From Lacticaseibacillus suibinensis (GTDB lineage: Bacteria; Bacillota; Bacilli; Lactobacillales; Lactobacillaceae): DNA of 64,000 bases. Location: NCBI RefSeq assembly GCF_003946175.1, contig NZ_RHOK01000011.1:1-64000 (forward strand), given 5' to 3'. The notes beneath the pieces are model-generated. The model worked only from the letters and a program-made list of their open reading frames with translations, was not told where the DNA came from and did no database searches. Made by a program: the position numbers and the translations under genes. Below, piece after piece: positions 8,558 to 58,620 of this stretch. Each line of letters begins with the position of its first letter. Position 1 is the first letter of the stretch.

Positions 8558-9718
<1,161 letters not shown>

Positions 9719-9883: not shown

Positions 9884-9915
9884 AAAAAAAGTCCCCACTG
9901 GCTGGTGGGAACTTT
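9884..9915 (-). terminator. Terminator of the M-box-controlled unit
   Basis: On the minus strand AAAGTTCCCACCAG-CC-AGTGGGGACTTT forms a strong stem (9888-9915), followed by a T-run, directly after the actuator-domain gene. This indicates the gene ends a complete transcription unit. Confidence 0.9.
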
Positions 9916-9928
9916 GCATCATCCTTGA

Positions 9929-10741
9929 TTAACCTGCTACGGGACTGGGCGACGTGACAGGATCCTGGTGATATCGGAAGGCTGCTTCTTTTGCCGCCTG
10001 CCGGTTGTCGACCAGGGACCGATCGAACACGATCGGCGTAAAACCTTGCGCATCAGGCAAAACCCAGCCCGATACGGCTTTAACTTGACTAAAGCGCAGG
10101 CCAACGAACCATTGGCCAAGCGCTTTGCATTGACTAAGTAGGAGGTGAAGCCCCATCTTAGCAAAGGCCCACAGGCTTAACGCCTGCTGCCCAGAAAAAA
10201 CGGCGTGGGTCAGTTGCACACCCATTCGCTGATCACCAGTGGCCACCACGACCACCTGGGCATCAGCCAGTAGGGTGCTGCCAGCAGGGGCAAACCCTGC
10301 GGCACAAGTTTGGTTGGTCAAGGTCAAAATCAACTTGAGCCAGCCGGCAACTTGCACCGGTGCGTTGGTTTCAACATCAAACGGCAAAACCGTGTCGGCG
10401 TTGAATTCGACCACGTCACCGACGACCAAACTGTTGCACTTCATTGCCCGGCGCAACCCGTCGCGAATCACGAGCACTGGGCGATCAGCGTCGAGCCGCA
10501 TGGTCCAGTGGGTAAACACATGGCGTGCGGCCAAGATCAGGATTGCGGCCAAGGCAACCGGTACTAGGCCCAGCCAGGCTTGGTCAAACAGGCGGTCCGC
10601 CAACAATGCGAGGCCAAGCGTCAGCACTGCGAGCTGACGAAGCGGAAAGGTTGGCCGCAGGGTGTGGGCACGCTGAGTGGTGCCGAATTGCTTTTTTTGG
10701 ACTTGAGCTTGACTCAAGCCACTTTGTACTTGCATCAACAT
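9929..10741 (-). CDS. Stand-alone, degenerate P-type ATPase actuator-domain membrane protein under Mg2+ riboswitch
   Basis: 270 residues resembling only the N-terminal third of a Mg2+-type P-type ATPase. GLSQAQVQKKQFG (8-20) resembles the cytosolic entry helix. Two hydrophobic segments follow (about 36-50 and 56-73). VIRDG (91-95), LVVGDVVEFNADTVLPFDVE (105-124) and ADAQVVVVATGD (149-160) match the actuator domain. The TGES dephosphorylation motif is absent, the DKTGT phosphorylation domain and ATP-binding domain are missing, and a further hydrophobic stretch lies near 178-206. The start ATG 10741 has GAGAGGAG six bases upstream within a hairpin. The intact frame, riboswitch and terminator argue against simple decay. 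A regulatory or accessory role in Mg2+ homeostasis is inferred. Confidence 0.68.
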   Translation of the reverse strand: MLMQVQSGLSQAQVQKKQFGTTQRAHTLRPTFPLRQLAVLTLGLALLADRLFDQAWLGLVPVALAAILILAARHVFTHWTMRLDADRPVLVIRDGLRRAMKCNSLVVGDVVEFNADTVLPFDVETNAPVQVAGWLKLILTLTNQTCAAGFAPAGSTLLADAQVVVVATGDQRMGVQLTHAVFSGQQALSLWAFAKMGLHLLLSQCKALGQWFVGLRFSQVKAVSGWVLPDAQGFTPIVFDRSLVDNRQAAKEAAFRYHQDPVTSPSPVAG

Positions 10742-10744
10742 CGT

Positions 10745-10768
10745 ATGCTCCTCTCTTCCCAGAGAGGC
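10745..10768 (-). promoter_or_regulatory. Hairpin masking the ribosome-binding site of the actuator-domain gene
   Basis: On the minus strand CCTCTC-TGGGAA-GAGAGG pairs with the Shine-Dalgarno GAGAGGAG of the gene starting at 10741. An outer CATCG/CGATG pairing could also cover its ATG. Ribosomes finishing the 28-codon ORF just upstream would open it. Confidence 0.6.
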
Positions 10769-10784
10769 TTAGCGATGCGCCTTA

Positions 10785-10871
10785 TTACTTATGGCATATA
10801 AGTGGTGGCACACGATCAAGCCTTCCGGGATCTGCATTGTCCGGACTACCACCATCAACTGCTTGTTTCAT
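10785..10871 (-). CDS. 28-residue Asp/Pro-rich ORF, possible Mg2+-sensing leader peptide
   Basis: ATG 10871 is preceded by AAGGTGA at proper spacing, and the frame ends in tandem TAA stops. The peptide (starting MKQAVDGGSPDNADPG, ending VPPLICHK) has four Asp and four Pro in 28 residues and no membrane segment. It sits between the M-box terminator and the actuator-domain gene, whose ribosome-binding site is in a hairpin. Asp/Pro-rich nascent chains destabilise ribosomes at low Mg2+ in the mgtL leader of Salmonella, so a similar sensing role is possible. Translation is not proven. Confidence 0.5.
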   Translation of the reverse strand: MKQAVDGGSPDNADPGRLDRVPPLICHK

Positions 10872-10948
10872 GTGCTCACCTTCTTTCATTCACCCGCCGT
10901 TGTGCCCCCAAGTTCCACCTTGGGTCATTTTTCTGCGAAACAGAAAAA

Positions 10949-10975
10949 ACGCACACCGATTGAGTATGCGCGCAG
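10949..10975 (-). terminator. M-box expression-platform terminator
   Basis: On the minus strand CGCATAC-TCAATCG-GTGTGCG is followed by TTTTTT: a 7-bp stem with one G-U pair. It follows the aptamer directly, as expected for Mg2+-induced termination. A second AT-rich hairpin (TTTTTCTG/CAGAAAAA, 10928-10949) overlaps its tail. Confidence 0.85.
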
Positions 10976-10984
10976 TTCTTGCAT

Positions 10985-11134
10985 CCCAATCGTTTAGTTT
11001 TAGCACTATACGCCTAGAAAAAATTCTTCAGCTACGTTAGCGCAAGCCTTTGTAGACAAGCGCAGTTGACTCATTGGCATCTCTGGATGTTTCTGAGCAG
11101 CAGCATTGTTCGTATAGGAGCCTCACCTAACGGA
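10985..11134 (-). ncRNA. M-box (ykoK leader) magnesium riboswitch
   Basis: The minus strand carries the conserved M-box order: CGTTAGGTGAGGCTCCTATA, then AATGCTGCTGC, CCAGAGATGCCAATGAGTCA, AACGTAGCTGAAG, and the closing ATAGTGCTAAAACTAAACGA. This matches the known ykoK/mgtE leader consensus nearly base for base in its core. M-box RNAs fold around Mg2+ and turn off Mg2+ transporter genes. A consensus promoter lies 5' and an intrinsic terminator 3'. Confidence 0.95.
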
Positions 11135-11162
11135 AAGCACCAGTTATTTACCTACGCCCTCT

Positions 11163-11191
11163 ACTATACGGACTTCAGGTGAAAAAGTCAA
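11163..11191 (-). promoter_or_regulatory. Promoter of the M-box transcript
   Basis: Minus-strand TTGACT (11186-11191), 17-base spacer, TATAGT (11163-11168). Transcription would begin about 20 bases before the riboswitch. Confidence 0.85.
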
Positions 11192-11295: not shown

Positions 11296-11329
11296 AGAAA
11301 AGAAATTGACAAACTGGAGGGTCAAAACC

Positions 11330-11884
11330 TTGTATCTAATGAAAGACATTACCCGCGACGGCGATCCAGTCCTGCGTAAGCGGGCAGCAAAAGTTCAATT
11401 CCCCTTATCTGAGGCCGACCAACAACTCGCACACGATTTGATGCAATACTTGGTCATTAGCCAAGACGAAGAGGAAAACAAGAAATACAAACTGCGGCCC
11501 GGCGTTGGCTTGGCCGCGCCGCAAGTCGGCGTTTCTGAGTGCATGGCGGCTGTACTCGTGCCCGGCCCGGATGACACGATTTTATTTCAAGAAACCCTCA
11601 TTAACCCCGTGATTATTTCCAACTCGGTGCAAGACGCCGCCCTCTCCGAAGGCGAAGGCTGCCTGAGCGTGGACAAAGACATTGAAGGTTACGTTGTGCG
11701 GCATGATCGCATCACCATTCGCTACCAAAACCTTGAAGGCGAAACCAAAAAGGTGCGCCTCAAGAACTATGCGGCGATTGTTTGCCAACATGAAATCGAC
11801 CACTTAAATGGGATTTTGTTCTATGACCACATCAACAAAAAAACACCGTTCAAGATGACGCCTGAAGGTGTTTTGATCGACTAA
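11330..11884 (+). CDS. def: Peptide deformylase
   Basis: About 184 residues. It removes the formyl group from the N-terminal Met of new proteins and is essential. All three motifs are present: GVGLAAPQVG, EGCLSV (metal-binding Cys) and QHEIDHLNG (two metal His and catalytic Glu). Start choice: TTG 11330 (MYLMKDITRDG) lies nine bases after GGAGG. The internal ATG at 11339 is the alternative but sits 18 bases from the Shine-Dalgarno. It has its own promoter and terminator, so it is monocistronic. Confidence 0.96.
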   Translation: MYLMKDITRDGDPVLRKRAAKVQFPLSEADQQLAHDLMQYLVISQDEEENKKYKLRPGVGLAAPQVGVSECMAAVLVPGPDDTILFQETLINPVIISNSVQDAALSEGEGCLSVDKDIEGYVVRHDRITIRYQNLEGETKKVRLKNYAAIVCQHEIDHLNGILFYDHINKKTPFKMTPEGVLID

Positions 11885-58487: not shown

Positions 58488-58501
58488 CGAAAAATATCGA
58501 C

Positions 58502-58588
58502 ACCGCAATTCCTACGCTCGTATTAACGAACAGGTTCGAAGGGTCTGGGCAAATGCCCACTCTCAGCCAATGGCTCCCCTTTGCGTTG
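58502..58588 (-). ncRNA. TPP riboswitch (THI element)
   Basis: The minus strand shows GGGGAGCC, GGCTGAGAGTGGGC, ACCCTTCGAACCTGTTCG and CGTAGGAATTG, the conserved TPP aptamer elements in order. Thiamine diphosphate binding would shut off thiT. Confidence 0.96.
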
Positions 58589-58620
58589 GTCCCGGACAAC
58601 TATTTACTTGTGCAAAACCC

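Follow-up and report, generated by a model that had tools for sequence, protein, structure and literature searches.

The window, by which we mean the entire stretch of 64,000 nucleotides that was analyzed (contig NZ_RHOK01000011.1, positions 1 to 64,000), is from Lacticaseibacillus suibinensis, whose genus finds wide use in food, and the genome to which it belongs is labelled G000. On the minus strand of this window, a gene for a 270 aa membrane protein, which we will refer to as the short gene, is located between def and pdhA, and NCBIfam also identified the PDH E1 beta (below its cut-off) and RNase J1 among the further neighbours. In the preliminary description of positions 9884-11191, it was proposed that a promoter, an M-box aptamer, a terminator, a short ORF, a hairpin masking a ribosome-binding site (RBS), the 270 aa protein and a final terminator follow one another, and this order was confirmed by our analysis (Table 1). 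Elsewhere in the window, a TPP riboswitch (68.5 bits) was observed at 58492-58590 on the minus strand.

Table 1. Features of the short-gene locus and its two flanking genes.
Feature	Position	Strand	Remarks
def, peptide deformylase	11306-11884	+	named by NCBIfam
Promoter, TTGACT-17 nt-TATAGT	11163..11191	-	10/12 consensus matches; shuffles average 0.6 such sites
M-box Mg2+ riboswitch aptamer (RF00380)	10978..11141	-	covariance model, 126.3 bits (gathering cut-off 44 bits), E 6.2e-28, model 1-169 of 169
Aptamer 3' strand CGATTGGG, candidate antiterminator 5' arm	10985..10992	-	8/8 complementary (G-U allowed) to 10957-10964
Riboswitch intrinsic terminator, stem-loop followed by T-run	10949..10971	-	9 pairs
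uORF, 28 aa, MKQAVDGGSPDNADPGRLDRVPPLICHK, conserved Asp-Pro motif	10785..10871	-	present in 28/28 genus loci
Hairpin CCTCTCT-GGGA-AGAGAGG, positioned over the Shine-Dalgarno sequence of the 270 aa ORF	10750..10767	-
Actuator-only MgtA-derived protein, 270 aa	9929..10741	-
Residues 34-83 of the protein, helical hairpin, probable M1-M2 equivalent	10493..10642	-	model, hydropathy, structural-match range
Residues 86-186, A-domain core lacking TGES	10184..10486	-
Residues 253-264, conserved C-terminal tail AAFRYHQDPVTS	9950..9985	-	genus consensus AFRYNQDPVS
Final intrinsic terminator	9888..9915	-	11 pairs
pdhA, PDH E1 alpha	8558-9664		named by NCBIfam

The presence of an actuator (A) domain fold in the 270 aa protein is supported by profile alignment, by its predicted structure and by structural matches. 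In the predicted model, helices extend over residues 34-52 and 55-83, and residues 224-243 have a pLDDT below 50. The middle and C-terminal parts of the protein are fast-evolving and poorly modelled, and within the tail the residues F255 and Q259 are invariant in 28/28 short proteins from the genus. A 9-residue pattern derived from this tail retrieved 21 stretches from the genome collection, 19 of which belong to relatives of the short protein. An alignment profile of the protein matched a plasma-membrane (P3A) ATPase with an E-value of 7.8e-11, and comparison of the genus profile with the N-termini of 11 pumps (three of them stubs) by hhalign gave 96.8% (E 2e-10). These profile matches are restricted to N-terminal stretches, and the later pump helices are absent. 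Single-sequence searches of PDB, Pfam, and NCBIfam produced either P-type ATPase matches that were below every curated cut-off or no matches; against NCBIfam, the window protein had no match at 1e-5 and did not reach the 610.75 bit threshold of the MgtA equivalog TIGR01524. The motifs [TS]GE[SA] and DKTG were both absent from all 28 short proteins of the genus, which also contain no P or N domain, and the earlier account of the product as two helices plus an actuator-like part without TGES, DKTGT or an ATP-binding domain is thus borne out. As no site for the binding or hydrolysis of ATP is present, the short protein cannot function as an ATP-driven pump, and the loss of catalysis is well supported. 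Ligands for Mg2+ have been reported in the A domain of Lactococcus lactis MgtA (PMC13174805). By mapping, two of these (a Glu and the Asp of AGD) correspond to Ala99 and Thr117 in the short protein; since both of them are replaced, sensing of Mg2+ by this route is improbable for the short protein, and direct sensing via the MgtA-type A-domain sites was rejected as a candidate function.

The short frame was found in 28 of the 30 Lacticaseibacillus genomes, with lengths of 248-271 aa counted from the chosen start, and a 29th match (L029) proved to be a longer paralogue. In all 28 loci the frame is open to its conserved C-terminus, and a terminator-like hairpin is present 3' of the gene in 27 of them, including that in the window. 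The fetched stretch includes def in 25 of these loci and pdhA in 13. For 13 pairs of genes from the genus, the dN/dS ratio calculated by the Nei-Gojobori method was between 0.15 and 0.59, with 12 of the values at or below 0.34. The gene in the window and its nearest relative differ by 57 synonymous and 30 non-synonymous changes (dN/dS 0.146; Fisher p 3e-17), and the p values for the three pairs to which the Fisher test was applied ranged from 2e-12 to 3e-17. For nine pairs of short genes from three other genera of the family (denoted g12, g25, and g37), dN/dS was 0.06-0.28. The gene had been considered earlier to be intact and maintained, and these results agree with that view. Two contrary situations that were raised at the same time, viz. 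that close relatives carry full-length pumps with only this copy truncated, or that dN/dS is near one, were both examined and neither of them holds. A decaying MgtA pseudogene that is still expressed by chance would account for the missing catalytic motifs and for the fast evolution of the protein, which in the window is only 21-41% identical to 26 of its 27 genus orthologues. The single pair with a dN/dS of 0.59 also points in this direction, as does the value of 0.03 for the only computable pair of full-length MgtA genes, although the latter was obtained at a dS of 2.25, i.e., near saturation. However, the open frame in every locus, the dN/dS values of most pairs, the conserved ends, leader and terminator, and the occurrence of the same state in other genera all argue against decay. 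A pseudogene is therefore largely refuted and barely credible as an explanation, and it was rejected along with a truncation confined to a single strain. Maintenance of the short gene by natural selection is well supported.

An M-box was identified in 26 of the 30 genomes of the genus, exactly one in each, and in all 26 it lies 5' of the short gene; these counts agree with a cmscan of the loci. The aptamer strand CGATTGGG can pair with a stretch inside the terminator, which is the usual layout of an OFF switch, the terminator/antiterminator platform being recognized here purely from sequence complementarity and a predicted hairpin. The 8/8 antiterminator pairing (G-U allowed), within 60 nt, was found in 20 of the 26 M-box leaders, and a predicted hairpin precedes a T-run in all 26. 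Two genomes (G009 and G022) have kept the short gene and contain no M-box, and hence control by low Mg2+ is not universal. In G016 (85% complete) and G026 (91% complete), neither the short gene, in a single-sequence search, nor an M-box was detected. According to the literature, the gene that follows an M-box is nearly always corA, mgtE or mgtA, and on one earlier occasion an M-box pointed to a new class of transporter (PMC4072509). Based upon this precedent, it could be proposed that the helices of the short protein themselves let Mg2+ or a counter-ion across the membrane, as a channel or as a carrier. However, the hydropathy of the short proteins indicates mainly one helical-hairpin region, with a weak additional stretch in part of the family, and two g25 proteins that were aligned lack the M1-M2 region and yet retain the A-domain core. 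A transport function of this kind is thus unlikely.

The uORF was found in all 28 loci of the genus, including the two that have no M-box, with the reservation that the finder made use of its motif, so that this count is partly circular. Two Asp residues of the uORF are invariant (28/28), Asp-Pro is present in 27 of 28, and further along the peptide two more columns contain Pro (in 27 and 23 loci, respectively). The start codon, the ribosome-binding site, and the gaps in multiples of three (judged by eye) agree with a real uORF, although its pN/pS is only 0.67. The codons GAT CCC GGA, specifying Asp-Pro-Gly, are nearly fixed in the genus (27, 27, and 24 of 28), which suggests that both the RNA and the peptide are constrained. 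In the three leaders of the genus g21 that precede MgtA-type pumps, uORFs containing PADPDDRPRR or PADPPSRSRR are present. By our own reading, a stem resembling the RBS hairpin, with differing arms, exists in 25 of the 28 loci. This hairpin was missing from the consensus structure that RNAalifold gave for 22 of the 28 leaders; the program called a helix of six pairs between the Shine-Dalgarno sequence of the uORF and the end of the uORF, in which two pairs are changed on both sides. In shuffles carried out for each locus, between 1 and 300 of 300 reached the observed score of the RBS stem. In view of these outcomes, the support for the hairpin comes from its kept position combined with changed arms, and not from statistics. 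As a separate observation, 13 rows (12 distinct loci, L108 being identical to L157) from the genera g13, g15, and g20 contain an M-box followed by a DPG ORF of 26-33 codons, with no long gene next on the strand (L108, L109, L112, L115, L119, L124, L126, L138, L149, L151, L156, L157, and L160); in these loci, the micro-ORF or the RNA itself may be the product.

Several known leaders provide points of comparison. In MgtL, an EPDP motif is reported to destabilize ribosomes at low Mg2+ (PMC11282234), and in MgtQ acidic residues are described beside a sequestered RBS (PMC8092293). Similar to the uORF found here, both are short ORFs with early acidic and proline residues that precede an Mg2+ gene, and the RBS hairpin here would be the counterpart of the downstream RBS sequestration reported for MgtQ. 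In contrast to them, the present uORF is combined with an M-box and occurs in Gram-positive bacteria, and the likeness is put forward as a lead without any claim of homology. By this analogy, the Asp-Pro uORF is possibly a second, MgtL-like sensor of Mg2+. The pN/pS of 0.67 and the absence of the RBS hairpin from the RNAalifold result count against the likeness. The pe20 Mbox of Mycobacterium tuberculosis likewise precedes a conserved small uORF, rv1805A; however, as it is described (PMC12810186), its platform is translational and Rho-dependent and its downstream genes are different, whereas the layout here involves an intrinsic terminator.

The short protein could also represent one half of a split pump, whose P and N domains are encoded by another gene. 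The A domain together with M1-M2 forms a compact module that might in principle act in trans. However, in a search of G000 for the exact DKTGT motif, the motif is preceded by 299 codons or more in all 10 of the frames recovered, and these contain TGE[SA] (nine frames) or SGES (one frame), so that within this genome and for this exact motif every DKTGT frame comes with its own A domain; in addition, the short protein is itself without TGES. On the basis of this genome and the exact motif, a split pump was rejected, and we regard it as very unlikely. With TGES and the P and N domains lost in all genus proteins and no complementing frame in G000, the suggestion of a non-transport product is supported, whereas the accompanying idea that it regulates another P-type ATPase or ATP use is a conjecture. 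In respect of possible partners, CorA was found in 30/30 genomes of the genus, MgtE above its cut-off in 0/30, MgtA above its cut-off in 5/30, and other P-type ATPases in 30/30. A fixed partner among the M-box-driven pumps was rejected as a rule, as 26 genomes of the genus hold a single M-box; among the genomes with a short gene in other genera, a single M-box is also found in 4/6 of g25, 2/4 of g12, and 2/8 of g37. In the light of these frequencies, CorA or a P-type ATPase that is not under M-box control is the natural candidate for a partner.

Profile and M-box searches were also conducted on 397 genomes of the family, of which 144, from 18 of 40 genera, were positive for the M-box; the survey of the genes behind the M-boxes covers the fetched loci, which are a subset of these. 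Beside def and behind an M-box, short ORFs of 229-316 aa were observed in g12 (4/4 positive genomes), g25 (6/6), and g11 (1/1). In the g12 and g25 loci the short gene is followed by pdhA, and in g11 by a membrane protein that we take to resemble an ABC permease. In g21, an MgtA-type pump lies behind the M-box with def adjoining in all three loci read. Two of these frames are 878 aa long and the third (L141) is of 754 aa and is followed by an overlapping frame; the one pump that was scanned (L142) is an MgtA equivalog with 1074 bits, against a cut-off of 611 bits. The single g12 short protein scanned has MgtA as its best match (8.6e-15) and also matches the Cation_ATPase_N domain. Based upon the location of MgtA at the same def/M-box site in g21 and the best match of the g12 protein, the short gene looks like the positional heir of MgtA.

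A second arrangement was observed in g37, for which 21 loci were read (20 fetched loci and L152). In eight of them, from eight genomes, the M-box is followed by an MgtA stub of 331-361 aa and then by a metG-like gene, which was named by NCBIfam in L171 and recognized by its start in the others. The other 13 loci encode pumps of 887-940 aa, 12 with an exact DKTGT and nine followed by the same metG-like gene. The frame of the stub L152 includes the M4 region and then stops, and its match to MgtA has an E-value of 5e-55. The TGES position is altered in the three stubs aligned and also in the full-length pumps of g37 and g40 that were aligned; among the latter, the MgtA-type pumps L173, L174, and L139 have NGES or DGDS in its place. 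As full-length pumps also deviate at this position, the loss of TGES is a weak sign of inactivity, and the firm sign is the absence of the P and N domains. In six of the eight g37 genomes with a stub, a second M-box is present, and in all five cases read (L110, L111, L113, L118, and L120) a pump frame containing DKTGT follows it and continues beyond the end of the fetched sequence. Judged from position and sequence, truncation of MgtA seems to have occurred more than once, with the def-locus and metG-locus events appearing independent; the number of events is likewise derived from these two features. Some other loci deserve mention in their own right. In a g25 genome (G089), the MgtA-like pump behind a second M-box (L147) is broken up into several frames, and the short gene (L148) is intact. 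In a g17 genome (G045), def, an M-box and a possible uORF remain at L153, with no pump or short protein of the listed size after them; the next gene is presumably an ABC-type ATPase. Lastly, apparent ABC transporter genes lie directly 3' of the M-box in L143, L144, and L150 (g4, g38, and g15, respectively), those of L144 being identified by Pfam as a BPD_transp_1 permease and an ABC_tran ATPase, and they possibly encode an undescribed ABC importer of Mg2+.

The positions of pdhA and metG lend themselves to the explanation that the RNA matters rather than the protein, i.e., that the leader or read-through controls an operon lying further downstream, for example pdh or metG. In keeping with this, the fetched stretch includes pdhA at 13 of the 28 genus loci and at those of g12 and g25, metG follows the eight g37 stubs, and uORF and M-box are conserved. 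However, the gene is followed by a terminator-like hairpin in nearly all genus loci and its protein is under purifying selection; furthermore, pdhA is outside the fetched stretch in 15 of the 28 loci, and another gene begins just downstream in L015, L023, L026, and L028. Hence, we consider control of this kind to be highly improbable.

In comparison with known systems, the short protein resembles MgtA/MgtB (P3B; TIGR01524) in its homologous N-terminal half, with a helical hairpin and an A domain, and differs from them in lacking TGES, the P and N domains and the later helices and in falling below every curated cut-off. The locus shares with other M-box (ykoK) genes a full aptamer, a terminator and the antiterminator layout, but the product of the short gene is not a recognizable transporter. 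A further parallel is provided by the plant P3B ATPase PH1, which is described as not transporting H+ by itself and as enhancing the P3A pump PH5 (PMC10654040). By that description, a relative of MgtA that moves no H+ itself enhances a different P-type ATPase, although PH1 is presented there as a P3B ATPase and not as a truncated one. Among the matches listed in a search of the open-licence literature, no title was concerned with a truncated P-type ATPase under M-box control or with an actuator protein that stands alone, and PMC3766115 and PMC13273304 proved not to be relevant. The locus is built from known parts and amounts to a genus-wide, selected M-box pseudo-pump, to which the stubs in other genera of the family are parallel.

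These observations suggest that a pump that has lost its engine, and is nevertheless kept, has another job during magnesium shortage. On balance, we consider it probable that the short protein is a recurrently evolved, membrane-anchored pseudo-pump, a remnant of MgtA that is induced by Mg2+ starvation and has a regulatory or adaptor role, its partner and mechanism being the conjectural elements. According to this proposal, an MgtA-type pump under M-box control would have lost its catalytic half and TGES, and the remnant would have been retained in the membrane. At low Mg2+, the antiterminator of the M-box would open and the short gene would be transcribed, as expected from the layout observed and the behaviour of this riboswitch family. 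Ribosomes would then encounter the conserved Asp-Pro uORF, and its completion or abortion may set the access to the RBS hidden in the hairpin. The short protein itself would most likely bind another membrane protein of the Mg2+-starvation response, either CorA or a P-type ATPase of full length, whose activity or stability it would tune. A more specific reading is that Lactobacillaceae have at least twice converted an M-box MgtA into a dead, actuator-only regulator of Mg2+ starvation, which in Lacticaseibacillus is placed under two stacked sensors, the M-box for transcription and the Asp-Pro uORF with the RBS hairpin for translation; this reading, toward which the evidence is nearly balanced, is advanced tentatively.

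In regard to the use of the M-box as a sign of Mg2+ transport, for which a strong association has been reported (PMC4072509), the short gene constitutes a genus-wide exception. A 2023 review raises the question of whether P3B ATPases truly pump Mg2+, and it recounts evidence that uptake is not the sole purpose of mgtA/mgtB induction (PMC10654040). The recurrent, selected reduction of MgtA to its A-domain half is a natural experiment on that half alone. If the short protein is indeed an actuator-only regulator, the N-terminal half of MgtA would be selectable without transport, which would bear directly on the question of whether pumping Mg2+ is all that P3B ATPases do, and with the short proteins a function other than transport can be put to the test.
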